From contig OZ038532.1 in NCBI GenBank assembly GCA_964036665.1, forward strand, positions 6,138,001 to 6,202,000: DNA of 64,000 bases, written 5' to 3'. The DNA is from Gordius sp. MW1. Taxonomy: Eukaryota > Nematomorpha > Gordioida > Gordea > Gordiidae. Positions 15,231 through 39,474 of this stretch are shown piece by piece. Each line of letters begins with the position of its first letter. Positions within the stretch are counted from its first letter, which is position 1. The notes beneath the pieces are model-generated. The model searched no databases. It was not told the origin of the DNA and saw only the letters and a program-made list of their open reading frames with translations. Both the position numbers and the translations under genes were made by a program.

Positions 15231-15279
15231 TAAACAACTTTTATTTATGTTTATTATATAATAAAATGAAACAATAATA

Positions 15280-15747
15280 GAACAAGCGGACGGCCAAAAA
15301 GTCATATTATCAATGGTAGTAACAGGAAAAATATATTAATTTAATTTAAAAAATAAAAATTTGCCCTCTTTGGGAATCGAACCAGCAATTCAGAACGTTC
15401 GCCGGGGTTCGAACCCACATTAATAGAGGCATAGGCTTTTGTAGGGGCACATAGACCCATATCAGTAAAGGCATAGGCCCTTTTAGTGGAGGGCATAGGG
15501 TAATTATAGCAATTAATATCAATGTTACCCAATTCAAAAACGAATAGATATACTTATGCATTAATTTAACATAGCAATTAAAACCCGACCCCGCCCGAAA
15601 GCGAGGGAGATAGAGATGAGGGGTGGGGCACCTCTTTCTAATGCATTAATTTAAAACATCGATAACCTAATGTACCCAATGCAAATAGATAGGGACGGAC
15701 GGACAACGGACAACCAAAAACGAGCCCATAAATTGCATAGCAATTAA
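15280..15747 (+). repeat. Tandem-repeat element tail with tRNA-like blocks
   Basis: Contains two T-loop-like blocks (gaatcgaaccagc at about 15373 and ggggttcgaaccc at about 15403), an aggggtggggcacctc segment and the terminus cccataaattgcatagcaat at 15725-15744. It resembles the distal part of 46585-48110. Confidence 0.65.
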
Positions 15748-16446: not shown

Positions 16447-19400
16447 ATGTTTAATATACTGTTATTAGTATCAATATGCATTCAAAGCTTATTTCTGGTT
16501 GACGCTCAAAGTAAATTGACATATTATAAACGGGTATTTTTGATTTTCTTGTCAAATATAAGGTCAACTTAGCTATTTATATCAAACATTTTCTTTTAGT
16601 ATGTTTAATGGAATTCAAATCATTCTAATTATATGTTTTACCTTACTTTTTATATGTTAAGCATTCTGATATTTTTTAAATATATTGGCATTTAAGGTCC
16701 AAACATACTTTTTTTTTAATTTTGATATCATATAAAATCTTTTACAATTTTATATAAAGTTAACACAAAAAAATAACTTTTTAGTTATAACGAAGCTCAT
16801 GGGTGTGGCCAGGGGGAGGCATCTAAATCCAAAAAATCTTTAAAATTTAATATAATTATGGCTAAAATTTAAAAAAAAGAATCATTTTGCCCCTGCCCAA
16901 ATTATTATTGTCCTCTTTAATTCAAATCCTGGCTACGCCCATGACGAAGCTAATATAAAAATCACTAAGCAGTGCTTAAAAGTATTAATCGCACACGCAT
17001 TTATAGAGTCTTACAGTTTTTAACATACCTTCATGCAGTAATGCTTCTCTTCCTCATTAGATAAGGATGCTGCGAGAGAAGAAATTACAACAAGTAATAA
17101 ATTTAAAGTTATGCAATGAACGTTAAATTTGAATGAAATAATAATTAAATTACAATATTATTTTGTATGCAGCTAGCACACCTCTAAGTTCAACTACACA
17201 AATTACAAGTAGATTAAAAATTTAGATTTTATTAAACTATTTGTGCTTAAGAATGGAAGGGAGAACTGTGCTCTTTGGTTCCACAGACGGGTTTTTATAA
17301 AATCAAAGATATCGTGAATCAGGAGTATCCAGAATCATTGTAAGTTACAAATCATCTTTAAACATTAACTAATCAATATAATTATATTATCAAATCATCA
17401 TTAACTCAAAATTTTTAAATTTAACCATAAAACTCAGTTCTGACGAAATTCACTTGGTGCGCGAGGATGAAAAAATCTATTGGTCTATAGATGGCAAAGA
17501 AATATTTATGTCAGATCAAGCTGATAAAATAAAAGGCGGACTGATAAAAAGAAAGGCGAGTCTGGCCAATGGCAAAAAGGATCAAATAGTATTTTTGGAT
17601 AGAATTGGGGTTCCATACACAATCGAGGCTGATAGCAACGTAATTCCTATCTTTGGATTATAATTTTTGGTGCAAATTATTTGGCAGCGCTCCCTACGGT
17701 GTATTCTAATCCTTAATTATATGTTTAAGTAAACGGAAGCCCTGATTAAACATTGATGTGCTTCATTTAATATTGACAAGAGATGACTACCCTTAATCAA
17801 ATAATGATTATAATATGATTGCCTTATACAATGACCACCTAATTATGGCTAAAATTTCAAAAAATGACCATTTTGCCCCTCCCTAAATCATTAATGCCTC
17901 CCTCTAATTGTAATTCCAAAGCTTACTACGCCCATGTGTGAATATACTAATAGTTGTCAGTGTAGGCAGGATTGCATATAGGGGGGAAGGGTGCAAAAAA
18001 TTTGATTAATAGTAAAAAACAAAAATCTATTATGTTTCCATACGTTAGTAGGATGGATCAACAAAGGGGGGAGGGGTGGAATTTAATTTTGTGTCAAAAA
18101 TTTAAAATAAAAAAATAATTAAGATTATTTGCATTCCATTCAATATCTACGATGAAATAGTATTAAAAATGCATCAAAAATACCTTCAGTATAATGTTTG
18201 TACTTAAAAAAAGGATTAACAGTTAATTTATCTAAATTTTATGACGCGCCTGTTCCAATTTTAATAAATATGCTCACCAGAGCTATTGTTTGAACTAGAG
18301 ATCAGAGGTCAGATTTGCTAAAAGAATTTCTCCTTGAACCCCGTCCGGTCCGATTTTACAACTAAGCTGCCCGTCCGGGTCTGCCTGGACCCTTCTAATA
18401 ATCCCCCCGGCCATGCCCAAATTATAAGAGCTGCCCTAACTAGCCGGCCCGAAATAATGTCTTGTACAATTTTTGAAACTAATATCGTTATATTTTGTAA
18501 GATTTCGACGTTAATTTCCGATTTTTACTAAAAACTAGGCTTAAAAAGATTATACAATCAAATAAAAAAATGAGCGATTACACGAAAAAGGATTAATACA
18601 TTATTTGAAGATATGAGTGAGCCCGAATCGCCCGAATATTATTGTGCCCACCCGGGCATAGCAGTTGCCCGGCCCGTGGGGACGGGGGGGTATGTTCGGG
18701 CACCGGGCATTTCTGGTCTCTGCTAGAGATATAAATGGACATTTTACTTAATTCGTGCACCTTTACGAAAATTAAAAACCCGGTCTTTGTTCAAGCCCCA
18801 TCGGATTACTTGTAGCCTCGAGCCCGGTAATTCTTTGCAAGGCACGGGCGAAGATTGGACCTTGCCCCACAAAATTCTTTTAAATAATGCAAATTGTTTG
18901 TCAATATTAAATCTAAATTTTTCAATAATAATCATGTTAAATCAGCTTCCAACGAGGGGCCTGCACTTGTATATTTTTAACAAAAATTACCAAGTTTTGT
19001 TTTTGTTTTCATAAGATAAGAGCTTTCGGGAATCCACTTTTTTAAAAAGCACAAGTTTAACGAATAAATGGTGAACGAAAATTATAATTGATGAAATTAA
19101 TATGAAAAATCTAATAAGTATCAAGACCTAAAAAATAAAAACATTAAATAGTAATTTTGCTGGTTGGAGCCAGGCATTATAGCTAGGCCCGGTCCGACCC
19201 CGTTTTGATACGTTAATTCTGTCCAAGCCCAGCCCTTAATTTTTGTAAACAAAAATCCAATACCTGCACGCTCATAGATAATCCGCAGGCCGGATTCTAA
19301 GTTTAATTTTGGCGAAGCCAACTAGTTTCGCTTTATTGGCTAAGTCATAATCATCTAATAGTAAAGTTAAACAATTAATTTACTTAACCATGAGGATTAT

Positions 19401-22400
19401 TGATACTTAGTTGACTTTTATCATTAATCTCTATTGTTGAAGTAGCACATTCAGTTTCTAAAGAAAAGAGATTTTAAATTAAGTTCAAAAATGAAGCATG
19501 CATGAATGAAGCGTACAACACGTAGTTAAATTATCATTTACTTTGTGTATTAACTATTTGTATTTTAATATTATGCTCTTCTTCAATAGTGTAAACACAC
19601 TCAAACAAGGACTCTAATATATTTTAAAATAAACATGTTAAACTCTTAGAATTATTAATAACTTTGACAAATTTCTTTTCTAATTTACAACTTAAGTTTT
19701 TTAAGAAATAATTAAGATTTAAATTTTTTTCCATTTGACACTCACAGGCAGGCGCATAGCCGAAATTTTCTCAAGGGGGCAGAAAGATTCCAAAAATTTT
19801 TCGACACTTTTATTTATAATCTAACAAAAGTAAACTTTGCGTACAATATATGCGAAACTTTAAGGCGCTATATAATCAGCTTTGGAAAAATCCCTTATCT
19901 TTATTAATTAGAGCATTTACTAGCGCTTTTATACCTTAAAAAAGGACATGGACCTTCAAAAAAATTTCCGAATTTCGGTCAAGGGGGTAGAAAATTCCCG
20001 CTTCCTGCCCCCTTGGCTACGCGCCTGCTCACAGGGAATGAAAATTTTGTATAAATTGTCTTGGAATAAAAAAATTTTCAACTAAAATCCATTCTCAAAT
20101 TAATTAAGATAATTAATTATTTCTATCAGCATAACACCAACAAGAGTCCTATTAATATCAATGAATTTTTGCATTTATTCTCAATTTTTTTTTAATTTTG
20201 TGCCAAGGTAGGGGGGGGGGGGAATTTTAACCCCAAACCCCCCCCCCCCCCTCGCCTCCGCCCATTACTAATTTTACAAAACCAATTTTTGAGCAATAAC
20301 CCATTATTTTTTATTAATTTTATCCAGCTGGTTATAAATCAAAGTGCAAGTGCCAATTATATCCTCTTCCTATGCTCTCTTAGTTACATAACTCAAACAA
20401 AGGCAGATTCTCACTACATTTGTGCCTTAGCAGTTGCGCCTGGCATGAAGGTAATTATTTAATATTTCGAATCATATTTCAAAATTTATAGACTAATGTT
20501 ATCCATAAAAAATGTTTTGTTTAATCATATAAGGCATCGCTAAATCAAAGACCACATCATATAATAGTTAATACAACTTTGCCCAACGGAAAAACAAAAT
20601 ACACATACATTAATGAGTCTTTCATCATTGGTGTTGAAGGGAGCTTCCAAATTGGTGGATACAAGCACTCTGTTAGAGTTATGTTGCAAACATGCCCTGG
20701 TATAAACTTTATTTCGCTCCTAATTAAGTTATCTGTTTGAAACTTTTCATTAATAGATTAATGAAAAGTGATTTCCAATTCTTAAATTCGCAACTATTTA
20801 ATAATAGAAACAGTATCCCTTAAATTATAGATCTTGTTAACTCATTTCCTCAAATTAAGTCCAGCACATGTAATATTAACGATTTTCATATGATAATATA
20901 ACATATTAATTTTAAATACTCAATACAATGTGTGTTCCCTTCATGTCGAAATGTAAAGTAATTGAAACCCTTCATTAAATAAATTTTTTATTAGTACCAT
21001 TATATGCAGTATACAAAATTATAAGATTAATAAATGTTTAAATTTAACTCGATCCACATAAAATAGAAACAACTACCTTGGCGCCAACTTCAACAACAAC
21101 TATTTCGACAACAGGTTAAAATTTATCTTCGATACAATTTACATTGAAATATCACATGAAAATTTCTAAATTTTAACTCTTTACTAAATCAACATGTATA
21201 ATAGAAACAACACCCTTGACGTCAACTCAATCCTTAACTATTTCCACTAAAGGTTATAAATGGCATCAATAAAATGTGTATATCATTATTATTTATATAT
21301 ATCAGAGATGCAAATAATAAGTTGTTTTTATTAAAAATGGGGTATATAACCGCTAATCTTTATGATAAGGATAATGATGCGATTCTAGCCATTTACAGCC
21401 TTTTCAGGTTTACGTTTTAAATCTGAATAACTCATAGGTGTTCAATGTCTATTATGCCTCATTTTTAATCCGAGCAAAAATTTAACTTGAAGATTATTTT
21501 TAAACGTCCCACCGGCAACGCCGTCAATCGATGGTTTATCTTAACAGATCTTCATGGTTTACCATAGTTGTATTTTGTCTTTGTATTTATAGACCATTTC
21601 CACATTCAAATGCTTTTTAATTTCAAAAGGATAGTGGCAAATTTAGACCAATAATGCACTACAAAAATGTCATAATGATGAATAACATCAATAAAATCAA
21701 ATACAAGTCGATTTAGTAATTAAAAAAAATCAATTAATCGAATTTTATGGCTACATGAAGCTAATATAACTCTTTAGTGTTTGATATGAATATATAATAG
21801 ACGTATAACGTAAGACTCATTTTGATTAGAAAATATTTTGATTGCTATATGCATTCGAAATGTAATGCCATTATATAGTTGATGTTAATTTAATGGATTT
21901 AAAATCAAAGTTTTTACATCAACTAATTTTTTTTTAATCTTATTATATCATTTTAATAATCACAACACAATGGAAATCCTTAAATCTAACACGATTTCCA
22001 TACACGGATCAATGCCATCCGTTTAGTTATAAGGCGTTTTTATATTCTTTTAGAGTCGTAAATGTAATTTTTTGTATACCATTTAATAAAGAATTTGTAT
22101 AAGATGGCTTTTTCTTTAAAATTTTATGAACATGTTTAATCGCTTGTGCTACTTTATTATATATAATCCGTTTTTATATTTTATAACGGTTTTTATAATG
22201 ATCAATTTAGTGATCATAAATTGAATCATGATTTGTAAATAACGTCAATCAATTTTTATAGGTCCTACAGCTTCTGAGACAACCACAGCGTGTCCACCAG
22301 GTATTTAGATTTTTTAATTTTTAAATTTTCTTTTGAATTAGTACCCGATATTTGCGAAGTTGTTAGGCAAAATGGCAATTATAGTTTAGCAGATATTATC

Positions 22401-25400
22401 ACTTGCACATCTCCATCTTGCCAGTATATAAATAATTTTTTTATAGTTTTATCATTTTTCACTATTTACGTTTAATTTTTTTAGGGGAAAAATATACCTT
22501 GAGCGAGCTCAAAACAAAGTTGTTTGGGCAAATGAAGAAAACGATTTTTTCCATGTGATAAGTGGCGGCAGTGACCTTGGTGAAGAATTAAAAATTTATC
22601 AAACCTTGTCCGTTATGTTCTACCTTAAAACAAAATATGAAATAACACTAGAATCTGACAGTGATGTAAAAACGATATTTTATACTTTGCATGCACATAA
22701 ATGTATTGTTTTTTAAATAGGTGGTGATGATTCCTAAAGATTTGACTGGCGATAGTAGAGCTTTTTGTGCGCTAATTATGGAAAAAGATATATATTCCGA
22801 TTGCTTTTACCCTAGCGATATTGCGAATGTTGTAAGACACAATTTGTATACATAAATTCAAATGTTGTAAGAAATGATTTGTTGATCTAAAAAAATTATT
22901 TCACATTTTTCAGAAATCCATTACACAGCACGAGAATTTCGTTGGCTTAGAAGAAGAAATTAATGGGCAAACTATAACCAGACGTCTAAATAATGCCTTC
23001 ATTATTTATAGCAATGATAAGCTTCTTTCAATAAGTGGCACGATGCATAAACTAAGAATAGTTCTTAAAGTTTGCAAGGGTATTACTTCTATTATATAAT
23101 TTTTAACCCAAATCTTTTATATTTAAATAGAATTGATAACCACTTCAGGTAAAATGTTTAAGAAAATTAACATTTTTATACCACTAATAAACTTTCCCAT
23201 TTAATCAATCTCTGCCGGCGTTTTTAAATAGTTATTACAGGGACGACAACAGAAACTATTACATTTACTCCGTCGTTATCCACATCTGTAACTTCCACTC
23301 CAATTACTACCCCAACCAAATCGTCAACTCATTCTGAACCTACTCTTTCAACTACAAGTCAACCTACTACCACCAGTCAAGGTAATTCTGTTGTGAAATA
23401 GACTTTAATATACCTCGTTTATATTTACTTGTTAAAAGACAATAATAATTTAATATATTACTAATAGAGATAATGGAATCCTCTATCACTAAAATAAATT
23501 TTATTAGGAATAACGATTCCAATAACCACAACAACCTATATCCATGAAGGTATAATTTTTAGACAATTAGTTAATATTACGAATTCATAATATTTTTAAT
23601 ATGTCATTTTAGGCGATGTGTGCCAATATCCAATGGGCGATTTTCAATATGACTTCAAGCAGTTCTGGAAACTAATTTTAAAGCCTGCTGGAATGTAATA
23701 ACTATTTGCAATTTGACACGAATTTTATACGTCTGAATTTAGATCTGATACGATGAATTTGAGAAGAGTGCCGGGGGCTGTTATCTGGCCCATTGATGGT
23801 AGTGATATTTATGACACCAAAAATGTGTGTAAATCGCATGATGCCAGTGATTGCAATAAGATAGTAGCTTCGATAGAGAAAACATCTTTAGCTCAGTTGA
23901 ATTGGTTGCACGAACATTCAGTAAAAGATATAAAATTTGTTGTAGATAGCAACGTAAGTTACTTTAATCTTACCTTTTACGCCGATACCATATTGGTTTT
24001 TATAACTTTTAATATAGATTATCATGGGTAGAGGCGGGCCCATATTCCCTTTCACTATTAATAAAAATAGCCTAAAACTTTAGTATAGAAAATTTTAACA
24101 AACTGTAAGAACTTTACTCACTTGTTTGAGCCAAATCAAATATAAGTTATATTAGCAATGAATAATTTTTATAGAAGTAGGGCATTTTTATAATAAACTA
24201 TTATTTTGTCGATCTTTGTTATCATTAAATGACCCAATGGATGCACATTTTAAAACTCTTTACAATTTTAAATTCAATAATTGAATTCAATTTTACTAAA
24301 ATATAATAAATGTATTGCTACTGTATAAAACATAGAAAGTGTTTATAAACCTGGAACCTTACACTAGAGAAGTGAAAAGTCACTTTTTTCAACCCGAACT
24401 CGCCTCAACCCGAATTTTTTTTAAATTGTCAACCCAAACCCGACCCGAAGCATTTTAAAATTTACAACCAAAACCCATTCTACCCCAAGGCATTAAAAAT
24501 TTTTCAACCCTTCAGGTCGGGTCGGGTTTCGGTCACCCATGCAGGTCTCTACCCTTTACTAGTAATCTGCCATTAAAGCACATGTAGGTAGAAGTTACTT
24601 TAAGAATAACAAAATCGTATAAGCCACTAAAAATCTTATTTTATATTATTGTTCAATTATTTTTTTGAAACATTATGCCTAACCTTCTTAATAAGTATTA
24701 ACCTTTTTAAAAAACAAGGTAATCTATTGGCGTTCTTTATAAAAATTCGAATTAATTATTTATCTGTGCTATAATAAAGTTAAAAGTGGAAGCCTCAGGA
24801 GAAAAATATCAGCTTATGATGTGCAAGTTTAGCGTACACCAAAGAAGAAGCGAAAAGTTAGGTTGCGAAACATTGGGTGTAAATCGTGTCAAGGTAGGCA
24901 GGTTGATTTCACAAATTTTATTCATTCTTAATAAATCCATAAAGAGCACTTATAATTTAACTACATTATAAACGTTCTTTAAATAATTTAAATAAAATGA
25001 ATTCTATTTTTGACTTGTATACTTGTATAAATTTATCCATGGGAAGCAACTATAAAATTGAACATTAAGATTTAAAACATTTTTGAGGGAGTTGTCGTTG
25101 TATCGTATATGTAATATACAAAACGGCTAACGAACTCTAATACTTTAAAGGAAATTTTCAATAATTATTAAAACATTTATAAATATTTCTATTTATTTTG
25201 ACGCAGAGTCTTACTATCACACAAAATGGGACCAGTATTGTAAGCGAGGGAGACCATTATAAAGATGTCAGCGGTGATTCCTTCATTGTAAAATTATCGG
25301 GTGACTTAAAACTTAATGGCAATACACATGACATCGGATTTGTGATTCAAAAGTGTCCTGGTAATATCTAATCTTAAATTTAAATTATATTCCAATATGA

Positions 25401-28400
25401 ATTTTGACGAATAATAAATAGAACCAACTATCTATTTAGATAGAGATAATGTACTTCATAATTTATGTAAAACAATTTATAGAAGTAAAGTTTATAAATT
25501 TAAAACATAATATATCGCTAAAATGTAAGATTCAAAATATCAAACAACCTCTACGCATCACTTTTTTACAAATAATATTTAACAAGTGCTGCCAAAACTA
25601 ATTTAAGGTTTCTTTTTAAACAAGATCGCTCTGTCGCAAAAAATTATTTAACCGGTGCCTTTGAGTTGCCAATTGATTCTTATCATACCGTATTAATCTT
25701 ACTATTTGTACCTCTGCTTTTTATCTAATTTATTATATCGATTTGGACTTCACATATATCTTCTAAAAATGGTTAAAACTGCATAGGTAAATAATAATTT
25801 TATAAAATGTCTGATTTTTTAACATGTATTAGGTACTTCAGTCTTGGGGTGTGTTTTGATAAATTTCATCCACCTTGATCGGATAGGCACCATGTTTGAA
25901 TATCTTCTTAGTTTTCAAAAATTAGTCTATTTGCCCTTTTGATGTGACATGAGTTCGTCCTTTTTCTCTCTTCCCCAGCACTTTATGTCCAGTGATTTAC
26001 ATCATCTGTTTCCTTTTTTAATATATGAACATACCACCTCATCCGATTTACGTTAATCAAATCCGCCATCGGTTAAATACCCATTTTTGGCCTAAGACAG
26101 TCATTCTTAATATGATCAACTTAGTATACCCCAAGCTCTACCGTATCATTGCCTGCTTGTAATAGCTTTCTTCCGTAGTTTTCAATGCCCATATTTGACT
26201 TCTATATAGTAACACCGGTCTTACAATGTATTTGTTTGCTCTGCTCGTCAACCGTATTGGCATATTCTTGTCAATTTCGCCATTTGAGACATCGTTTTTG
26301 GGTCTATGCAATGACATCTTTTTTGCAACCTCCCCTCGATGTACCATCGAGCCCAGGTATTTAAACGTGTGTACTTTAGAGTATTTTAGATGGTCATCCA
26401 GCGATGGGCTGCCTGAAACGTCCATTTCCATGTATACCCTTTTTCAATTGTTGACTTTTAAACTTATCGAGCTAAGCGCTTTTAATACTCTTAGGCTTTG
26501 AACACTTTCTCCTTTGTCTCTTCGCTACTACTATATCAGTCGCATATAGCATACACCAAGGAGATTAATGGCTTTTAATTATCGCGTCCATAGTTATATT
26601 GAATAATAAGCGACTTAAAGTATTAGATGCTTGATGTAATCCAATTTCAACCCGAAAAGGTTTAGAGTTCTCAACTGTCGTTCTAACGCGAAAGACTGAG
26701 GCTTCATCAATAATTTTTATGAGCTGTACATATGTGTCGGGTATATTTTGTTTTCTCAAACACCACCGTATATAATCGCGAAGGACCGTGTCATAAACTA
26801 TCTCCAACTCGATAAAACCCAAATCACTTTTCTTCCACACATTTGTCCATTATTTGTCTTAGTAAGAAGATTCGATTATGGTTAGGCGATATTTCCACCT
26901 CCTTTTTCACTCTTGTTACTAAGATCCTCTCCATAAATTTCTAGGAGTGGCAAGTTAGCTTGATACCTCTGTAATTGGCCCACTCCTGGGAGTCTCCTTA
27001 GCCTTGGAATAAGGGTATAATCGTGCTTTCTTTCCATGGATTAGAAATTTGCTATTCTACAATATGTTGTTAAACGAATTCGTCATGATTGTGACTCCTT
27101 CTTGGACCGATGCCTTCATAAGAATTTTATCTGGGCCATCTTTATTTGCCCAACTTGTTCATTTGTGTCCTTACATCATCCTTCTAAAGGAGTTTCATTG
27201 TAATACCCTTTTTACCTTGCCATCGCCTCCTGCGGCTTGAATAAAGTTTGATCCTTCTCGTTTATGACTATTTTAACGACTCCAACTTTTATTCTCCCTT
27301 ATCTTGGCCAATGTGTACATAAGCCTTCGCCACCTTTATGATCGAGTTTTTTTTGCCATTTTGTGTACGCATCATTTATCGCTTATGCAACGGCCTTCTT
27401 CCTCTCTTTGCTTCCCTATATTCTTGATGATCTCCAACTTTTGAATATAAGGCAGCGTTTATATCGAGTTTTATTTCTTTCAATTAATTCCCTGAACGAT
27501 TGATATTTTAATGCTAACTAAATTTAAATTTGAGTCATTGGGATTAAAATGGTTTTTATTATAGTGTATAACTTTAAATTAATAAGAAAATAACCATTTT
27601 GCTCTTAAAGAGCTCATCAATTTGCTACTTATAATTAAAATCATAAACCAGAAGAGGTAGGTGTAAGACCAAGCCATTTAATAAAACATTAATGATTCCT
27701 TCACTAGTGTTTAAGGAAGTTTCCAAATCACTGAATTTAAACACTTATTTGGAGTTATGTTGACAGGCATTGATTTAAATTTTATTACGCTTCTCATCAA
27801 TTCCTATGTATAAAACATTTTGTTTTTAGAATATTGAAAGATATTTTGAAATTCCTAAATTAACTGTTTATAAACTCTGTGCATTATGTCATTATATAAA
27901 GTAACTAACCTTCATATAATAATATTTTTATCACTTTTGTATGCCAAATAATATAATTTTTAAAATAGTTTATAAAATTTATTTAAATTAACATAAAATA
28001 GAAACAACACCTTTGACATCAACTCAAGCAACAACTATATCGACTAAAGGTTAATGATGGATTCATTTTGATTTGCTATATCACATTTTTTAAAAGATAT
28101 TTTAATGCTTGCGATCAACATTATATAGAAACAACACCCTTGACGTCAACTCAAGCAACAACTATTTCAAATAAAGGTTAAAACAGCGATACAATTTGAT
28201 TTGCAATACACTACTAAAAATATTAAAGTGTTTTTAACATTTATTTAAATCGAATTAAAATAGAAACAACACCTTTGACATCGACTCTTGCAACAACTTT
28301 ATCGACTAAGGATTAAATCAATTATCGATACAATTTGATTTGCTTTTTTAAAAAGATTATTGGAATTATTATTATATCAAGAACTTTTTTCTTTATTTTA

Positions 28401-31400
28401 TAATTTTATTTTGAATAATTATTTTTGCGATCATAAATTGAATCATGCTTCATATTATATAGTTGTTATATTACTATACTTATAATTACTTACAATATAT
28501 AAATTTTAAAGACAGATTCTTTTCTTCTATCACTACAAATAATCTCTAATAGATAAAAATGTAACGAAATTAATAAATTTTATTAGTAAGAAGGATTCCA
28601 GTAACCACAACAACCTATATCCATGAAGGTATAATTTTTAAACAATTTTTGCATACATATATATTTAGTCAATATTACAAATTTATAGTATTTTTAATAT
28701 GTCATTTTAGCCGATGTATGCCAATATCCAATGGGCGATTTTCAATATGACTTCAAGCAGTTCTGGAAACTAATTTTAAAGCCTGCTGGAATGTAATAAA
28801 CTATTTGCAATTTGACACGAATTTTATACATCTGAATTTAGATCGGATATGATGAATTTGAGAAGAGTACCGGGGGCTGTTCTCTGGCCTATTGATGGTC
28901 GTGATATTTATGACACCAAAAATGTGTGTAAATCGCATGATGCCAGTGATTGCAATAAGATAGTAGCTTCGATAGAGAAAACATCTTTAGCTCAGTTGAA
29001 TTGGTTGCACGAACATTCAATAAAAGATAGAAAATTTGTTGTTGATAGCAACGTAAGTTACTTTAATCTTGCCTTTTACACCGATATCATATTGGTTTGT
29101 AACTTATAATTTTAATTATTATGGGAGAGTTAGTCCTATATTCTCTTTAATACTGATAGATAAATATAGCCTAAGGCCTCTAGTACGGAAAAATCTCAAA
29201 CGCATCAAAAAACGTTAGTCAATTGTTTGAGCTAAATATAATATAGACGTATTAGCTATAGCTATGAATAATTACACAGGTCTACAAAAAAAATATCCCG
29301 CAATCTGACCAATAATTCTGATAGAGAATTTTGCACTGAAAAATAATATGTTTTTAGTTTTTTTCTACGATTACCAGCTTTTAAAATATATAAGTTTGAA
29401 AGTGCCAAAATGCCCTTTTTAAGCCTTTTTAAGGCTAAATTGCCATGGTATTTTTAATATTTAGTGAAAAATAGTAATATATTCATGTAAATTAAAGTTT
29501 CATCTATAGGTCCATTCTTTTTTTTATATCACCCTTATATTCAAATTTATACCCGCTTGCGTAAACCCCTTCTCCTTATTAAAATTCGTCCCACTATGTC
29601 TGGAAAAAGGAGTTCATTTAGAGTTCATACTACACACGCGCTGTTTACTAACACATATATCTCTCCCTTTACCTACTTACCTCTCTTTCTCCTCCACTCC
29701 CGCCCCTTTCATGTGTGCTTGGATAGATATGGGGGCAGGAGTGTAAGAGATGGAGAATTGGAGAGAGAGATGTGTTAGTAAACAGCGCGTGTGTAGTATG
29801 AACTCTAGTAGTCCATTTTCCAGACATAATGGGACGAATTTTGAGGGTTTACAAAAACGCGAATAAATTTAAGAGGTGTAACAATTAAAATAAATTAATA
29901 GACCTATAGATGAAACTTTAATCTACATGAATATATTACTATTTTTCACTAAATATTAAAAATACCGTGGCAATATAGCCTTACAAAGGCTTATAAAGGC
30001 CATTTTTGGCACTTTCAAACTCATATATCTTAAAAGCTGGTAATCGTAGAAAAAAACTAAAAACATATTATTTTTCAGCGCAAAATTCTCTATCAGAATT
30101 ATTGGTCGGATTGCGGGATACGATCACAAAGTCAATATTTGTAGAGCTGTGTTATTATAGAGATAGGATCTTTTCATAATGAGTAATTTTGTACTCATCT
30201 TGTCGATCTTTACCATTAATTAACATGATGGTAGCAAGGCCATGCAAACTTTTAACGCATTACAATTTTAAATAAAGTTATCCGAATTCAATTTTACTGT
30301 TATCTAAGAATTTAATGTTACTGTCGAACTCTACACTAGTTATCTGCCCTTTAAACACATGTAGGTAAGGTAGAATATATTTTAGGAATAATTAAATCAG
30401 CAAGCCGCTAGTAATGTTATGTTATATGGTTTAAAGATATTTTGTAAATATTTAGCCTAAAACGTTTTAATTATTGACATTTAATAAATCGAGGTATCTA
30501 TCGGTGTTTTTTGATGAAAAATCGAATTAATTATTTGTTTGTGCTCTAAAAAAAAAGTTAAAGGTCGTAGCCGCAGGAGAAAAATATGAGCTAATGATGT
30601 GCACGTTTAGTGTAGACCAAAGAAGGAGCAAGTTAAGTTGCGAAACATTCGGTGCAAATCATATCAAGGTAGGCGTTGATTTTACAAGTTTTATTCATTC
30701 TTAAAAAATCCATAAAGAACATATAATTTAACTATGTTTTTATGTTCTCAAAATAATTTAAATTAAATAATAAAATTCTACTTCCGTCTAACTTTTATAA
30801 CTTAACTAGGTAACTAGGTTTTGAAATGGAACAACAAGATGTAAAACAATTTATGCTTTTATTTTTAGTCTATTTTTCAGGGAATTTTTGTGTCGTATGA
30901 GTATTATATTAAACGGCTAACGAACTTAAATACTTTAAAGGACATATTTGAAACTATTTATTACGTTTCTATTTATTTTGACGCAGAATCTTACTATCAC
31001 ACAAAATGGGAGCAGTATTGTAAGCGAGCGAGCTAATTTTAAAGATGTCAGCGGTAATTCCTTCATCGTGAAATTATCGGGTGACTTAAGAATTCATGGC
31101 AATACACATGACATCGGATTTGTGATTCAAAAGTGTCCTGGTAATATCTAATCTTAAATTTAAATTAAATTCCTATATCACCAGTTTCTTACCCTTTCAA
31201 AACTATTGTATAAAACCTCATATTATTTACAGATTACGATCACATATGTGATATTGTAAGCGAGACAAAAGATTACAGCCTGAAGGATCTGATTCCGCCT
31301 CAAAACATACCATTCTTCATGTAAATATTGATATATTCTTATTTATAATTTATTGATATAAAGTATAATAACGTTACCATCTATTGTTGTATAGGCCAGA

Positions 31401-34400
31401 AAATGTAGGATTAGTAAGAAAAGGAGGTATTATCTTATGGATTTTAGAGGCTTCTGAGATATTTTATCCCATTAATAAATGTAATCCCGATGACCTTCCT
31501 TGCTCAAAATTCGAACATGCTCTAAATGATGAGAGGGTGGATCAAATTAAATGGATCAGGAGCCTTCCGGGGTCAAAGGTTGCCGTAGAGATTAATAGCG
31601 ACGTAAGTAGCTCTTTAAACAATTTTATTTTTTAAAAACAATCTGACTCTTACTATCGCGAGACATAAATAATTTTATAAATGAAATTTTTGTTAAAAAA
31701 TGTAAAATATTGCAGCATATTTTCATTTTGTCAACTAATTTACTAACTTAGTATATTTAAAGCGTGTAATTGATTTACATTTGTTATTTTCTTAATTACT
31801 TCCACATTAAATCGCTCAAAAAATATTAAATTATCATGTTTATATTTATTATATTTACGTTTTTACTAAGGTCGTCGTTACCATTAGCCATCCCTCTGCT
31901 TACGATATACTCTTATGCAGTTTAGATTTACAAAGCAGTGTTGATAGCATTGTATCATGTGAAACACATTCCATAGATCTCTTACAAGTAAGCTTTATAA
32001 GTATTAAGGAAATAGTTTTAAATAGAAGTTTAAACAAGATTTAGGCTATTTTATAACTAAAATTAAAAATTTTAAAGGGAGCAACAATTGAACAAAAGAG
32101 CAGTGGTGTTCATATAACACGAAGACCAGAAGGCGCTGAGCCCATCGTTCAAATTTATTCTAACAAATTTCTTTTTAAAGTAACTGGAGACATTTTTATC
32201 CAAGGCAACACCCACGCATTAGAATTCGTTATAAAGGACTGTGCAGGTAAACTAGTTTGATTCCATACCATGTCTATATTTAAGATCTATGTGTCCAAAC
32301 AAACATTATTAAAATACAATAACAAAGATTTAATAGGAATTGGGGGTTTATATCTACTAATATATATATATATATATATAATATATCAAGCTAGAACGTT
32401 AAAGCACACTATTACGTTTTAAATATTTATTTATTTTATTACAACAGTTTTAGTGACTCCAACTACAGTGGGAAATGGTAAAATATTGTTTTCTGATTTT
32501 TGTCTAATCTAACTTAACATGCTATATTTTAAAATAGGATTAGAAACTACGACTCCAGTAGCAACCCTAACATCACCTATCATGACTAAAGGTTAAACAA
32601 GGCATAGTGTGCATTCAGTTTTAATTTGTTAATCCATTACTTATCTTCTTCATAGATTTATTGTCGGGAATGTTAGAGGGTGTTAAAAGATGATAAATCT
32701 ATGAAGAACATTGATTATTAGGGTAAAAATCTTCTAAAATATTACTTATCGTGCTATCATATTTAAAAAGGCAAATATAGCGCCTTTATAAAAAATAGGA
32801 CGCTAATATAACCCCCTCGAATTTATCAAAATACTTTTATAGCAGGAAAGGTTTTATTCAAAACATAAATATATATAAATTGCTTAGCAATCAATATTTT
32901 AAAATAGCAAACGTCTTCCACGCATAATTTTTTTTTCTCATGTTGTCTAGGTCCCTCCAAATAATAAATCATAGGTTAAATTTTTAAACAAGATCGCTGT
33001 GTCGCTAAAATGAATTAACGGTGACTCTGATGAGTTAACAATTTTCTCTTATTCGACCTTCTTAATTTTACTTTTGCGCCTCTACTTTTTCTCTGTTTTA
33101 TAGAATTGCTTTGCAATAAGCCTAAAACATGATGTTATTAAAATTTTTTGATGAGATGTGTTTGGATGCCGCCTAAATTTTACATTCGTGTTAGTCTATA
33201 TTATATTATAGTGTTTGACCTTAAATTAACAAAGATGTAGACTTTTTGTTCCTAAAAGAGCTCACCAATTCGCTACATTTAATAAGGTCGTACCATCAGC
33301 TTAGGTAGGTGTAAAAACACCTTAGACTAAGCCATTTTATTTAGGTTATTCGCTCTACTATGGTCAGCTAATAGCTATAGGTGAAAAATCAAAAGTATGT
33401 GTTTACATTAAGACACTCATCTAGAAAGTTATGGATTCAATTAATTAAATTCGTTTTTATTTAAAAATTTATGTTAGATGACCGTTAATTGAAAATTATA
33501 ATCCCAATAAGCATTCTATTGTTTATATCGGTATTTTTAACCATTAGCTGCATATAAGATTTCTGATTTAATGAATATACTTATAATCATTTTTGAAAAT
33601 TTAGTTTTTATCAGAATTATATAAAAAGGGCAGAAAAATGATAAAATAATTTTAGATCAAATAGAGTTATATCATAAATATTCTTTAAGAATGGCTCAGT
33701 ACTTAATTTAAAATAAACCTTTTCACAGGCGACCGACTCTCCATGACTAATGCTTTTTAGCTCGAGCGAACATTTATTTTCTTACACTGTAGTCTGTAGC
33801 CGATATATGGCAGCGTTTTGTTGATTCTAAATTTTAATGCTCATTATTATAAATTTTGTAATGTTTTTGTGTTTTAGCAATAAATGTAATCAACAATTTT
33901 TGAATTTTATTCTAATGACTATAAATACTAAATAGAAACATAAATTCAAATCATTGTCAATTAATTTTATTAGAAACTTCAACCCAACCCCAACTTCAAC
34001 ATAATATTTATTTGGATATTTTTCCAATTAATTTTTACATTCAAAATAAGTTAGATCTTAAATTCTCTGCCCTTATCCCTACACTAATATAGGACTTTTT
34101 ATAAAGTCTCGAATAGTCTAACATTATTAATAAAATGGCACTTACTATAGAATAAACTGAGTTATAACTATTTTAAAAGTCTAGACTAAAAGTGTAAAAA
34201 ATCATCTTTTAAGAAAACTAGAAATAAATCTCTAATCCTAACTAATGCTTTTATAAAGAAAACTACAGGCGATTTAATCGTTAGCGGGACATTTTATAAT
34301 ATTTAATGTGGCCGAATGTCCCATAGAGGAGGATTAAGATTCAATCCCTATTCATTTTTGCGGCGATGATGAGTGTATATCTCATTTTTTTAAATTTTCT

Positions 34401-35600
34401 TAGGGGAAAACGAATCAATGCCTTGTTCTATGCCGGATCATTCCACTAAATATGGACCCAAAATTACGAGTAATAACCTAAAATTTTAGATGTATTAGAA
34501 ATTTCATTTATAATGGTATGGCACATTTTCAATTACAAAATGCGTTTTAGATTAAGGTTCAAAACCAAATAGATTGTCTTCAAATGATACAGGACACGTT
34601 CAATAATGATAAAACATCTCAATTATACATTTATTATATGATGTGAATGTTTTATGTATAATAAGTTTATTTTTAATCGATTTACTTTTTTCTGGATCTC
34701 TTTAGACGACTATATTACATTGAAATCCTTGTGCAGCCTTCCAGATTTTGCCGCCCATCGATCAATTAATTATACGGAAAGCAGCACATTATTAGAGTAA
34801 CATAATTTTCGCGATTTGTTGAAACTTATAATATTAAAATAATTAATATTTATTTATTCGAGTTTGTTCATTTAATAAAATAATTTTATAGCTAATTATT
34901 TATTAATTATTTTAAATTAGTGATATTAAATTACGAAAATGCAAAGGCTCAATATCAGCTATATGGGTAGCGACTTTTAACGCTAGAATTAGTGGGCAAG
35001 TTACCGAATATACATTTCTGACTCCTTTGGATAAACAAAATATGGAAAAATCAATTAAATCAGATTACAAAATAAGTGTCAATCCTGAACTGGTAAAATG
35101 TGAAATATAAAACTTATTGACACATCTCTCTGCAATATAAAATTAATAAAGGATATTGTTTCTATGTTTTTTTGTTAAATACTACTTTATTTATAAAGTA
35201 ATAAAAAATGAAATATATAGCATAAATATATTTTAGATGAAATTTAAACTATGGAACTATCGCGAGAGAACGGATATTTTTATTAACTTATACTCAATCA
35301 AAGATAAATTAATGCGTACAATTGACGGCTCTCTTTACAAAAAGGTATTAATTTTAATTGGATAAAAATGAAATCTTAATTTTCCTATAATAGGTCGCAG
35401 TGTCTCAAGGCCCTCAAGGTGTCTTATTTGAAGGAGTATTTAGAAATAATACACCGCACCAAGTGTTTTACTACAAAAGAATATTAGTTGATCTTCTAAT
35501 TGGAACGAATGATTTGGAAAAAGATTTAACTTTCCAAAATCCAGAGACTTATTTAAGCGTATCCACCACTCTTAAAGATTGTCAAGAAATGGAAGAATGA
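16447..35600 (+). CDS. Secreted six-module protein of unknown family (about 33 exons)
   Basis: Spliced gene of about 1360 residues; family not recognised. Exon 1 (16447-16510) encodes a signal peptide, MFNILLLVSICI then QSLFLVDAQ, so the product is probably secreted. Six modules of 180-194 residues follow, each from four exons whose phases repeat exactly (1-2, 2-0, 0-0, 0-1). Linker exons (phase 1-1) rich in Thr, Pro and Ser suggest O-glycosylated spacers. Linkers: 21067-21114, 21205-21252, 22262-22300, 23131-23148, 23232-23381, 23508-23549, 28002-28049, 28129-28176, 28587-28628, 32448-32477, 32538-32591, 34404-34469. The exon sum is 4083 nt, an exact multiple of three, ending in TGA at 35600. 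No transmembrane segment or GPI tail is visible. Phase agreement across all joins is strong support; exact boundaries, isoforms and use of module 3 are inferred. Confidence 0.8.
16798..16943. mobile_element. hAT-type MITE in intron 1 of gene 1
   Basis: 146 bp, ends catgggtgtggccagg and cctggctacgcccatg. Octamer acgaagct duplicated at 16790-16797 and 16944-16951. CATGGGCGTAGCC family. Confidence 0.9.
17842..17936. repeat. Half-copy of the CATGGGCGTAGCC MITE
   Basis: Interior words (attatggctaaaattt, ttttgcccctccct) and the right end ctacgcccatg are preserved, but the left end is absent. Confidence 0.55.
18303..18722. mobile_element. Non-autonomous hAT element in gene 1 intron
   Basis: 420 bp with ends cagaggtcagatttgc and gcatttctggtctctg. 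The octamer ctagagat is duplicated at 18295-18302 and 18723-18730. GC-rich subterminal zones (ccgtccggtccg, cccggccatgcccaa, gcccgaatcgcccg) surround an AT-rich core without a transposase. It lies in the long intron of module 1. Confidence 0.9.
19170..19290. repeat. GC-rich hAT-subterminal relic in gene 1 intron
   Basis: taggcccggtccgacccc and ccaagcccagccc words without ends. The patch at about 18780-18850 (aaaacccggtctttg, ctcgagcccgg) may belong to the same degraded element. Confidence 0.3.
19749..20027. mobile_element. hAT-type MITE in gene 1 intron
   Basis: 279 bp with ends caggcgcatagccgaa and ttggctacgcgcctg. The octamer ctcacagg is duplicated at 19741-19748 and 20028-20035. Related to, but distinct from, the CATGGGCGTAGCC family. 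Confidence 0.88.
22342..23079 (+). other. Module 2 of gene 1 (4 exons)
   Basis: Exons 22342-22423, 22485-22665, 22721-22831 and 22914-23079; 180 residues. Visible: DICEVVRQNGNYSLADII, then VVWANEENDFF and ESDSD, then VVMIPKDL with RAFCALIM, then FIIYSND...ISG and VLKVCKG. Introns are 41 to 82 bp apart from none longer. This is the clearest compact copy of the module. Confidence 0.85.
23613..25360 (+). other. Module 3 of gene 1 (possibly defective)
   Basis: Exons 23613-23694, 23743-23953, 24786-24893 and 25207-25360. Nearly identical to module 4 (two differences in the 82-nt first exon), so a recent tandem duplication. Visible: VCQYPMGDFQYDF, VIWPIDGSDIYDT, C-x7-C, QLNWLHEH, FVVDSN, then KYQLMMCKFSV, then VSGDSFIVKLSGDLKLNG and VIQKCPG. 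The third exon is preceded by ttaaaa, where module 4 has ttaaag: the AG acceptor is lost. Skipping this 108-nt phase 0-0 exon would keep the frame; using the AG one base downstream would not. Confidence 0.75.
24365..24551. mobile_element. Possible small hAT-type element in gene 1 intron
   Basis: Left end tagagaagtgaaaagtcac, right end ggtcacccatgcaggtctcta, with aacccgacccgaag-type subterminal words. Flanking octamers ccttacac and ccctttac agree at only five of eight positions. It lies between the second and third exons of module 3. Confidence 0.5.
25845..27490 (-). pseudogene. RTE-type LINE relic (reverse transcriptase)
   Basis: Minus-strand translation gives, in order, NYRGIKLTCHS and ERILVTRVKKEV; then a YD-V-RDYIRWCLRKQNIPDTYVQLI block (26565-26840); then VEIGLHQASNTLSRLLFNITMD, an altered form of the GL.QGS.LSP.LF motif; then FKYLGSMV (26138-26431). 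This is the reverse transcriptase of RTE-like non-LTR elements. Stops and frameshifts are frequent and the usual QGS is changed. It lies in the intron between module 3 and the next linkers of gene 1, in antisense. The endonuclease half is not seen. Confidence 0.8.
27690..27805 (+). pseudogene. Relic of a module exon (copy of the module 1 fourth exon)
   Basis: Resembles 20604-20740: ttaatgattccttca, aaggaagtttccaaatc and tggagttatgttg line up with ttaatgagtctttca, aagggagcttccaaatt and tagagttatgttg. Frame is broken and the CPG donor end is gone (ggcattg for tgccctgg). The following linker exons (28002, 28129) likewise resemble 21067 and 21205, so a block of module 1 end plus linkers was once copied here. 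Confidence 0.65.
28264..28311 (+). pseudogene. Third linker-exon copy with lost splice donor
   Basis: 48 bp after an AG acceptor, encoding ETTPLTSTLATTLSTK like its neighbours at 28002 and 28129. The GT donor of those copies (aaag-gttaa) reads aagg-attaa here, so the exon is probably not spliced in. Confidence 0.65.
28711..31140 (+). other. Module 4 of gene 1 (4 exons)
   Basis: Exons 28711-28792, 28842-29052, 30564-30668 and 30987-31140; 184 residues. Sister of module 3 with all four splice acceptors intact. The intron between the second and third exons contains the 0.88-kb foldback element (29275-30151). Module 5 follows directly without a linker. Confidence 0.85.
29275..30151. mobile_element. 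Foldback (long inverted repeat) element in gene 1 intron
   Basis: 877 bp forming almost one long palindrome. The left arm starts cacaggtctacaaa and includes atcccgcaatctgacc; the right arm includes ggtcggattgcgggat and ends tttgtagagctgtg. The arms run about 400 bp each, and the centre pairs ctacacacgcgctgtttact with agtaaacagcgcgtgtgtag. The trinucleotide tta flanks both ends (29272-29274 and 30152-30154), which would fit the TWA target of PIF/Harbinger elements, but the evidence is thin. Non-coding. Confidence 0.85.
31233..32246 (+). other. Module 5 of gene 1 (4 exons)
   Basis: Exons 31233-31320, 31395-31602, 31871-31987 and 32078-32246; 194 residues. Visible: ICDIVSETKDYSLKDLI, IILWILEASEIFY, C-x7-C, QIKWIRSLPGSKVAVEINSD, VVVTISHPSAYDILLCSL, FLFKVTGDIFIQGNTH and VIKDCAG. 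GNTH is shared with modules 3 and 4. Confidence 0.85.
32361..32385. repeat. (AT)n microsatellite
   Basis: About twelve TA units in a gene 1 intron. Confidence 0.85.
32646..32708. repeat. Perfect 16-bp inverted repeat
   Basis: ttcttcatagatttat at 32646-32661 and its exact complement ataaatctatgaagaa at 32693-32708, with a 31-bp spacer. It lies in the intron after the 32538-32591 linker exon of gene 1. Role unknown. Confidence 0.75.
32975..33345. repeat. Copy of sequences flanking the RTE relic
   Basis: 32975-33110 resembles 25610-25760 (aaacaagatcgctNtgtcgc, ctttttNtct), and 33165-33345 resembles 27520-27680 (aaagagctcaNcaatt, gtaggtgtaa, aagccatt). In the other copy the RTE relic lies between the two parts. 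Either the LINE landed inside a duplicated block, or this copy lost it. Confidence 0.55.
34404..35600 (+). other. Linker plus terminal module 6 of gene 1
   Basis: A phase 1-1 exon (34404-34469) is followed by exons 34706-34796, 34921-35092, 35237-35344 and 35394-35600 with the stop TGA. This module is the most divergent: SLCSLPDF, ISAIWVATFNARISG, ISVNPEL, then GVLFEGVFRN. The last exon runs on past the usual CPG position to end DCQEMEE. The first exon is the least certain join. Confidence 0.7.
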
Positions 35601-36470: not shown

Positions 36471-36754
36471 AAAAAATTTATTCAGAATATCCACCCGCAC
36501 CTTTCATCTAACATAGAAATATTTTGTCTCTCCAACATAGCTTACTCAAAAAAGGAATTAGTAAAAAGTTAAATCAAACTTATAAACCCTCTGATAGATT
36601 GTCATTAAGAAAAGGAAGCATATGAATGACCTGGCACTTTGTCATAATTTAGATGGGACTTTAAATCGATGAAAAAATTAAAACTTTATCTACATAGTTC
36701 TGTGAACATTACATTCAGCATTAATTTTTAATAGCTCTAATTCGCATTTTACTT

Positions 36755-39474
36755 TTAATTGCTATGCAATTTATGGGCTCCCTTTTTGTTGTCCGTCCGT
36801 CCGTTGTCCGTCCAACGTTCTGAATTGCTGGTTCAATACCCAGAGAGGGCAAATTTTTATTTTTTTTTTAAATTTAATTAATATATTGTTCTTGTTAGTA
36901 CTATTGATAATATGACTTTTTGACCGTGTCCTGGCTACTGATCAATGAAAAAATGAACATTGGCCAAATTGTGATTCGAAATTTTTTTTTTCGTTTTTGA
37001 ATTGGTATATTAGGTTTAAATTGATAATTACACTATGCCCTCCATTAGAAGGGCCTATGCCTCTACCAGAGGTGTGCACGGATCAATCCAATCCGACGGA
37101 TCAACATTTTAATTTTGGAAGTCGGATCGGATCGGATCGGATAAACATTTTATTTTAGTCGGATCGGATCGGATTTTCAAATTTAATATGACAATAATAA
37201 GTTCTAATTAATTAATTAATAATTTTTAGTATACCTTTTCATAATTATCTTTGCATTCGTTTTTTAATTTACCATTTTTGATGCCCAATACCACCTCTCA
37301 CCTAACGTACCCTAATATATTTATCAGTATTTCCCTAGCGTTTTTCCCTAGCTAGACTTTCTTGTTTGGCGAGAAAGCAGCTTGCGCCAATGATAAATCA
37401 GCATCTCCCGTTTTTAGCCCACGCACCTCTTTCTATCTCAACTCAACTCCGAAAATCATCAATTACAATCTCCCCTTTCCTTAAAGCACACGCATAGCTC
37501 CTTTCCCCGAATTAAACCAGAAAATTTAGATTCTTTATTATTTTTATATGATAATATGGAATTAGTCAAATAAAATTTTATATTTATTTCAGGTCTATTA
37601 AAATTGCTATACCTTATTTATATGTATTTTGAATTTAATCATCAATAAAAAGTTCTGTTCATAAATTTTAATTAAAAAATTTCGGATCGGATCGTATTTA
37701 GATTTTACAAAACTCGGATCGGATCGGATTTAGATTTTAAAACACTCAGATCGGATCGGATGGATATAAAATTTTTCAAAAACCCCTCGGATCGGATCGG
37801 ATCAAAAACACCTCTAGCCTCTACTGATATGTGTCTAAGTGCCCCCCCTCCCACAAAAGCCCTCTACTGATGTGGGTCAAATCCCGGCGAGAGCATATTC
37901 TTAATTGCTGGTACGATACCTGGAGAGGGCAAATTTTTTTTTAAGTTAAATTAATAAATTGTTCTTGTTAATACCATTGATAATATGACTTTTTGACCGT
38001 GTCCTGGCTACTGACCAATGAAAAAAATGACCAATGACCAAATTGTGATTTGAAATTTTTTTTTTCGTTTTTGAGTTGGTATATTAGGGTTAACATTGAA
38101 ATTACCCTATGCCCTCCCGTAGAAGGGCCTATGCCTCCACTGATATGGGTCCCTGTGCCCCCCCTCCTACAAAAGCCTATGCCTCTACTGATGTGGGTGC
38201 GAATCTCGGCGAGGGCGAATTCTTAATTGCTGGTTTGTATCCCGGAAAGGGCAAATTTTTTTAAATTTTTTTTTAAATTAATATATTGTTCTTGTTAATA
38301 CCATTGATAATATGACTTTTTAACCGTGTCCTGGCTACTGACCAATGAAAAAAATGACCATTGGTTAAAATATAAATCGAAGTTTTTTTTTCTCGTTTTT
38401 TTTGTCTCTTATATATTTATATTTTTTTTGACCGTGTCCTGGCTACTGACCAATGAAATTAATGACCATTGGTCAAAGTATATATCGAAATTTTTTTTTC
38501 GTTTTTTTCGTCTCTTATGTATTAATATCCTTTTTGACCGTGTCCTGGCTACTGACCAATGAAAATAATGACCATTGACCAAAGTATAAATCGAAATGTT
38601 TTTTTTGTCTCTTATGTATTTATATTCTTTTCGACCGTGTCCTGGCTACTGACCAATGAAAATGACCATTGGCCAAAGTATAAATCGAAATTTTTTTTTC
38701 GTCTCTTATGTATTTATATTTTTTTTGACCGTGTCCTGGCTACTAACTAATAAAAAAAATGACCATTGGCCAAAGTGTAGCAATTTTTTTTCTAAATTTT
38801 TAATATAGGCTATTTGGCCGTTTGCTGGCTACTAACCAATAAAAAAAATGACCACTGGCCAAAGTGAGATTAAGTTCAAATTTTTTCTCTAGCTTATAAT
38901 TATAGGCTGGTTATTTGGCTGTCTGCTACCATTAGAAAAAATGACCACGGCCAAAGTGATGGAAAAAATGACCAATGGCCAAGGTCTGATTAGGAATTTT
39001 TTCGGTTTTGTAATATCTTGTTTATACTATACATATGCGCATGATTTGAATAGAGTCTATAATCATAATTCAAATTATGGGTCGCCTACATTAAATTGTT
39101 TAAATTTATACAGTATTAAAAAAACTCTAAATTGAAAGTTGGACGTTTTGGAAGGATGACTATTGGTTTTTCCAAGATCATACCCTCTATTTGCGTTCCT
39201 TTCGTCATTTTGATTAATTTAGAAGTTGATAAATAAGAATGAATGAAAGGAAACCTATTCCTCAATAATAGTAGGTACAAAAATTTAATTTTTTAAAAAT
39301 TTGTATAAATAATTAACTAATCATTTTGCATTTCATACCCCCCTGTAGGCATTCTCGCCCCTTCCCACCTTACTCGCCCATAAACTGCATAGCAAATATG
39401 CTACGTTTATACGGAGTATAGATGAGTTTCATTTCCCCCCTCCTCTCCTTCCCACTAGGGTCGAAGGCCCGAGT
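36755..39474 (-). mobile_element. Tandem-repeat element, inverted copy with nested hAT
   Basis: The left end ttaattgctatgcaatttat and right end tcgaaggcccgagt are the reverse of the ends at 46585-48110. It holds hairpin units (ctactgaccaatga ... ccattggcca) at about 36935, 38010, 38340, 38445, 38550, 38655, 38745 and 38830, and tRNA-like blocks near 36830, 37900 and 38200. A 750-bp hAT element is inserted at 37067-37816. Confidence 0.75.
37067..37816. mobile_element. Non-autonomous hAT with GGATC subterminal repeats
   Basis: 750 bp, ends cagaggtgtgcacggatc and gatcaaaaacacctcta. Octamer gcctctac duplicated at 37059-37066 and 37817-37824. Both ends carry tandem cggatcggatcgg words, which may bind transposase. 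The core is AT-rich with no coding frame. Confidence 0.9.

Follow-up and report, generated by a model that had tools for sequence, protein, structure and literature searches.

The stretch of DNA analysed here, a window of 64,000 nucleotides from the genome of Gordius sp. MW1, raises the question of what kind of protein arises when one four-exon module is repeated along a single gene, and whether that module belongs to a known domain family. The initial annotation had proposed, from the letters of the window, a secreted and mucin-like protein with six copies of an undescribed module between 16.4 and 35.6 kb. We have re-examined the gene model, the kinship of the modules, their relatives elsewhere in the genome and the explanations that may account for them.

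When the exons were joined by script, the proposed coordinates proved exact. The gene lies on the plus strand and has 36 exons, from the ATG at 16447 to the TGA at 35600; the spliced sequence of 4068 nt gives 1355 codons free of stops, and all 35 introns (41–2688 nt) are of the GT-AG type. The exons run in the order SP (signal-like), M1, T1-T3, M2, T4-T5, M3, T6-T7-T9, M4, M5, T10-T11, 6x, M6 and stop, where M stands for a module with exons a to d and T for a spacer exon:

16447..16510 (+), exon SP: ATG and signal-like peptide MFNILLLVSICIQSLFLVDAQ, phase 0-1; signal judged by eye
17252..20699 (+), M1: a 17252-17339, b 17438-17639, c 20328-20450, d 20534-20699
21067..22300 (+), spacers: T1 21067-21114, T2 21205-21252, T3 22262-22300; 1-1; 45 aa, 55.6% S+T
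22342..23079 (+), M2: a 22342-22423, b 22485-22665, c 22721-22831, d 22914-23079
23241..23549 (+), spacers: T4 23241-23381, T5 23508-23549; 1-1; 61 aa, 55.7% S+T
23613..25360 (+), M3: a 23613-23694, b 23743-23953, c 24780-24893, d 25207-25360
28002..28628 (+), spacers: T6 28002-28049, T7 28129-28176, T9 28587-28628; direct-repeat family D3
28711..31140 (+), M4: a 28711-28792, b 28842-29052, c 30558-30668, d 30987-31140
31233..32246 (+), M5: a 31233-31320, b 31395-31602, c 31871-31987, d 32078-32246
32448..32591 (+), spacers: T10 32448-32477, T11 32538-32591; 28 aa, 35.7% S+T
34404..34469 (+), exon 6x: 1-1 linker preceding M6
34706..35600 (+), M6, terminal: a 34706-34796, b 34921-35092, c 35237-35344, d 35394-35600 including TGA

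The repeating splice phases and symmetric 1-1 cassettes that had been claimed hold for M1-M5: the phases are 1-2, 2-0, 0-0 and 0-1 in every one of these modules, and the total length of each is a multiple of 3 nt. The same symmetry extends to the ten retained Thr-rich spacer exons (30–141 nt) and to exon 6x, all of which are 1-1 exons. In M6 the phases are 1-2, 2-0 and 0-0, followed by the stop. A further spacer-like segment, T8 (28264-28310, 47 nt as read), has the donor GA, not GT; it was omitted from the model because the GT donor is gone, and its inclusion also breaks the frame.

Within the set of six modules, phmmer linked M4 with M5 (E = 1.1e-19), M1 with M5 (2.2e-14), M1 with M2 (2.7e-10) and M2 with M5 (1.4e-6); the values for M2 against M3 and M4 (0.035–0.077) were non-significant, and M6 found no match among the other five (0.58–0.83). 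Kinship was also assessed by leaving one module out, building exon HMMs from the remaining modules of the window together with the paralogs, and searching 2052 open stretches of the window. All four exons were recovered at rank 1 for M1 (E = 7.4e-5, 1.9e-10, 0.21 and 1.5e-7, exon c being the weakest at 0.21) and for M5 (3.4e-5, 4.8e-12, 0.014 and 3.1e-11). For M3 and M4, exons b and d came at ranks 1–2 (9e-11 to 1.4e-10; 2e-11 to 7e-11), with misses for exon c (ranks 5 and 8) and exon a (rank 323); for M2, exons a and d stood at rank 1 (about 1e-4), exon b at rank 13 and exon c at rank 1157. On the strength of these recoveries and the phmmer links, we consider the five modules M1-M5, each of about 185 residues, to be homologous.

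Five of the six claimed copies were thus upheld, whereas the sixth was not. In a profile-profile comparison with ten standard modules M6 gave E = 0.85, and its exon scores were equalled or beaten by 15 (a), 177 (b), 353 (c) and 73 (d) of 500 shuffles. It does have the same exon phases as the standard modules and a Cys near each end; M6 is part of the gene model, and its kinship with M1-M5 would rest on this exon plan. With the last module of the paralogous gene P47 (described below), M6 gave E = 4e-13 in a single comparison, and none of 1000 shuffles was as good. This match is carried by exon b (2.4e-9, 0/1000), with equally good shuffles for d, a and c in 11, 119 and 275 of 1000, respectively; in genome-wide searches the pair is weak (E = 0.10–0.16). 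Exon b is 172 nt long in M6 and in the last modules of both P46 and P47. The standard modules themselves are mostly 14–31% identical, recent copies aside.

The Cys of exon a, two Cys in exon c and the last Cys of exon d occur in all ten standard modules, and the Cys pair of exon b in eight, both members being absent from M1 and M2. Of the pattern given in the initial annotation, the exon a Cys therefore stands in full and the exon b pair in eight of ten modules; exon c has two Cys and not one, and the total is six rather than five. Counted by module, eight have six Cys, M1 has four and P47_1 has eight; M2 has two additional Cys in exon a, and P47_1 two elsewhere. The loss of Cys in pairs suggests the disulfides b1-b2, c1-c2 and a-d. 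Another claimed feature, a conserved Gly in a C-P/K/A-G ending with a split codon, did not survive splicing: conservation is limited to the G at the start of the split codon, and the spliced residue after M1 to M5 is E, G, E, D and V.

M4 is a recent duplicate of M3, introns included, and this pair offers a comparison of exons with introns. The two proteins are 86% identical, with a dN/dS of 0.45 (p 0.03); exon d alone gives 0.88, and the single exons are all non-significant. The c-d introns are 71% identical; the b-c introns can be aligned in pieces only, of which the three longest reach 73–75%. In contrast, the a-b introns (48–49 nt) are 96% identical, conserved as much as the exons. The b-c intron of M4 measures 1505 nt against 826 in M3 and holds, at 29294-30120, nested inverted repeats with arms of 117, 119, 48 and 31 nt (92–97% complementary), a palindromic, MITE-like insertion.

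The genome searched for paralogs comprises 211.8 Mb in 12 contigs, designated here by C and a number. Module searches across it matched separate genes, for example exon b of P40 at 2.5e-7. P40 lies on contig C6 about 34 kb upstream of the window gene, on the same strand, and consists of a signal-like exon, a 24-nt exon, two modules and a stop (410 residues), with phases as in the window gene; a retroelement integrase-like reading frame adjoins it (L040:9700-10000, by eye). P46 and P47 are found on the same contig near 1.66 and 1.70 Mb, about 4.5 Mb from the window gene. In both, a signal-like exon is followed by one standard and one divergent module, a linker exon of 78 nt (3x) and a last module of the M6 type; for P46, the last exon is known from a search match alone and exon d of module 2 is unplaced. 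Linker 3x is placed as 6x is in the window gene, and the two are alike by eye. Between the divergent second module and the standard profile the match extends over the length of the module but is weak (E = 0.0012, probability 8%), and for its exons in P47 shuffles were as good in 113 (a), 23 (b), 199 (c) and 10 (d) of 500. These paralogs back the predicted gene in its exons and at both ends, the signal-peptide start and the sixth module.

Constraint is also indicated by the paralogs. Over the 12 exons available from both P46 and P47, dN is 0.072 and dS 0.221 (dN/dS 0.32, Fisher p 2.9e-9), and in every comparison made dN/dS was below 1 (0 to 0.88). On contig C5 a single module, PC5 (L042, minus strand), combines exons a-c of the M3/M4 type with an exon d of the M5 type, all four of them open; its dN/dS is 0.34 against M4, 0.40 against M3 and 0.32 against M5d. 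Weighed together, these comparisons show exons that evolve like coding sequence. Such a hybrid may be taken as a sign of recombination between modules. Contig C2 carries an M5-type exon d with spacers, frame-damaged by eye.

The largest group of relatives was found on the minus strand of C6. With M1+M2 as the query, 97 matches were obtained, mostly in one stretch about 280 kb past the end of the gene, and an array module as the query gave 118 (92 candidates scored). The array occupies C6:6456990-6513782 (57 kb), has 25 matches to each of the four module exons, and consists of M2-type cassettes; for exon b, 16 of the 25 matches have one identical score. Module-like matches also flank it at 6455315-6456014, with an exon d 91% identical to that of M2, and others lie at 6515703-6516758, 6517361-6518438 (weak, E = 0.12–0.13) and 6957145-6958187. 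The one array unit read as DNA keeps the phases of the family in exons a-d, continues with exons of 18, 984 and 36 nt, and is followed by exon a of the next unit; it amounts to 549 residues. The 984-nt exon encodes 328 residues (143 T, 62 S, 57 G, 39 A and 21 P) with repeats of the GTTSAGTTTPS type, that is, 62.5% S+T and 6.4% P.

Since the unit read has neither a stop nor a signal-like start (by eye), the array units may be joined. They are spaced by 2358 bp in 14 of 24 cases and by 2100 to 2532 bp in the others, and 22 of the 24 spacings are divisible by 3; these 22 therefore differ from one another by whole codons, as expected if the length of the coding repeat varies. The near-identity of the units suggests concerted evolution. 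If all were joined and all length differences were coding, we estimate that the 25 units would make up about 15,000 residues.

Searches for known relatives of the module gave no match over the cut-off in Pfam-A, NCBIfam or the PDB sequences, in agreement with the earlier failure to recognise CUB, lectin, EGF, Ig or other domains. In Pfam, none of the six modules exceeded the cut-off, and the best value for eight modules was E = 0.048. The whole protein came nearest to Fibrinogen_aC (21.5 bits against a cut-off of 22, E = 2.3e-4) and TcdA1_RBD_3 (18.5 bits against 27, E = 0.0024), with no stretch passing alone in either case; the best value in NCBIfam was 0.025. A collection of 5.8 billion proteins, searched by a procedure that detects only sequences sharing exact 5-residue words, gave no relative for residues 560-1130 (7992 candidates scored, limit E 0.1), for a two-module alignment (5341 candidates, limit 1) or for an eight-module alignment (1155 candidates, limit 1), and tblastn of M3 against phages gave no match. 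Within Pfam, NCBIfam, the PDB sequences and the protein collection searched, the module thus appears undescribed, and we infer that it may be specific to hairworms. Taken alone, exon d of M5 is predicted to be all-beta (pLDDT 84), its model having no confident structure match, and exon b alone gave a poor predicted fold (pLDDT 49).

According to the definition used here, mucins have a PTS domain together with VWD or SEA domains (PMC1552070). In the window protein of 1355 aa, no VWD or SEA match was found in Pfam-A at E <= 1. Its densest 100-residue stretch has 40% S+T and 6 P, and because its own spacers are this short (28–61 aa) it is only mildly mucin-like. In the window gene as well as in P40, P46 and P47, the first exon looks hydrophobic and signal-like by eye. 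The secreted, mucin-like character proposed earlier fits this first exon, the Thr-rich spacers and the symmetric 1-1 cassettes, and the window looks like it holds a real gene for a protein of this kind.

Several known systems may be compared with it. In the surface-coat mucins of Toxocara, Thr/Ser-rich repeats are combined with small disulfide domains of the six-Cys ShKT type. This pairing of repeats with disulfide domains in a parasitic worm resembles the layout seen here, whereas the unit here is a four-exon module of about 185 residues without a ShKT match in Pfam. The gel-forming mucins MUC5AC, MUC5B and MUC2 alternate disulfide-rich globular units with Pro/Thr/Ser stretches, which is the layout of the array unit read. 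MUC5AC is described as having typically nine CysD domains, with variable copy numbers of CysD and PTS, and the CysD domain as having five disulfides (PMC11912381); in contrast, the hairworm module has mostly six conserved Cys and no CysD match in Pfam, and the window protein is without VWD and has short spacers split over several exons. With no VWD or SEA found and a module that is not CysD, the window protein is not a member of the gel-forming family as described. In chicken Muc13, the PTS region is reported to come from several small, near-identical exons with one repeat each (PMC1552070), which resemble spacers T1, T2, T6 and T7; Muc13 has a SEA domain, of which none was found in the window protein, and a transmembrane domain (PMC1552070).

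The signal-like start, the Thr-rich spacers, the Cys-paired modules and the PTS-bearing sister locus together make a mucin-type glycoprotein the best reading, and we put the probability that the window gene encodes a secreted protein of this type at about 60%. By analogy, the undescribed disulfide module is best read as standing where gel-forming mucins have their CysD domains. Its fold would be held by up to three disulfides (a-d, b1-b2 and c1-c2), and the short spacers may be O-glycosylated, keeping the modules apart. As M1-M5 and the spacers are symmetric 1-1 units, recombination in introns could add or drop them with the frame intact, and the family, with its two-module gene, two three-module genes and array of 25 cassettes, seems to have grown in this way. 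The product would most likely serve as a coat or gel, hydrated and either protective or adhesive, for instance on the body surface or around the eggs, although the tissue is a guess. More tentatively, and with a chance that we rate a little short of even, the array may encode a giant hairworm mucin, a single secreted chain of about 15,000 residues in which an unrelated disulfide module has the CysD role and the cassettes have been amplified; the window gene would be its shorter relative.

Two other functions have to be weighed against a mucin-type glycoprotein. The modules could be diversifying binding domains directed at arthropod defences, in a host-facing parasitism factor whose Thr-rich parts are mere stalks. 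Hairworms do parasitise arthropods (PMC10380579), and the multigene family, with standard modules of such low identity outside the recent copies, would suit this role; we nevertheless find it unlikely, as dN/dS stays below 1 throughout, though the single M3/M4 exons are non-significant, and near-identical array units fit structural bulk better than diversification. Slightly less probable still is a structural protein of the cuticle or extracellular matrix without mucin function, with modules that crosslink in the cuticle and spacers that serve as flexible hinges. Disulfide modules repeated on symmetric exons are a typical feature of matrix proteins in animals, and spacers as short as those of the window gene would be compatible with hinges. 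The 328-aa exon of the array unit, at 62.5% S+T, has the composition of a mucin and not of a hinge.

The locus might also be decaying, its exons readable and its expression lost. The lost donor of T8, the palindromic insert within an intron and the partial copies on C5 and C2, of which the C2 copy looks frame-damaged, point in this direction. Against them stand 1355 open codons, splice sites that are all intact and the constraint between M3 and M4 (dN/dS 0.45, p 0.03), and we regard decay as very improbable.

To our knowledge, the coats and gels of hairworms are little known at the protein level, and the papers searched included none on hairworm mucins. An uncatalogued module that occurs in several constrained genes and has been amplified into a mucin-like array provides a concrete handle on them. 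If confirmed, the mucin-type reading would represent an independent origin of the alternating globular and PTS layout of gel-forming mucins, and would show clearly how a very long gene can be built from symmetric exon cassettes with concerted evolution.

The mitochondrial contig of the assembly, C12 (14.8 kb), bears on the identity of the organism. Its COX1 reads through with TGA as Trp, and AGR codons in it stand at positions of Ser, for which reason a tunicate was rejected as the host. The 4.3 kb examined contains perfect inverted repeats of 108, 53 and 40 nt within nad1, a frame of 329 residues that matches NADH dehydrogenase (PF00146, E = 5e-65) in Pfam. Inverted repeats of 95 and 47 nt lie in a putative atp6 frame, assigned by eye and without a Pfam match. 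Four nematomorph species have been reported to carry perfect repeats within their mitochondrial genes, shared between species in atp6 and nad1, the most conspicuous case outside the group being described as a gastrotrich with repeats of up to 60 bp (PMC6649704). The nad1 palindromes therefore most likely point to a nematomorph (hairworm), and a bryozoan, considered at first, was set aside in view of them. Many COX1 copies also occur on other contigs; C8, for instance, has a copy as long as the full profile, and C4 has repeated partial copies.

Elsewhere in the window, a reverse transcriptase domain (PF00078, E = 1.3e-12) was found at 42854-43534 on the minus strand; the adjoining ORF at 41780-42550 has no domain match and may belong to the same element. 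At 57067-57492, also on the minus strand, 31 residues match the MRG domain (PF05712, E = 8.1e-6, 25.8 bits against a cut-off of 22.8). Direct-repeat families with units of about 100–130 nt occupy 14003-15405, and parts of them recur inverted at 36753-38000, flanking the gene on both sides.
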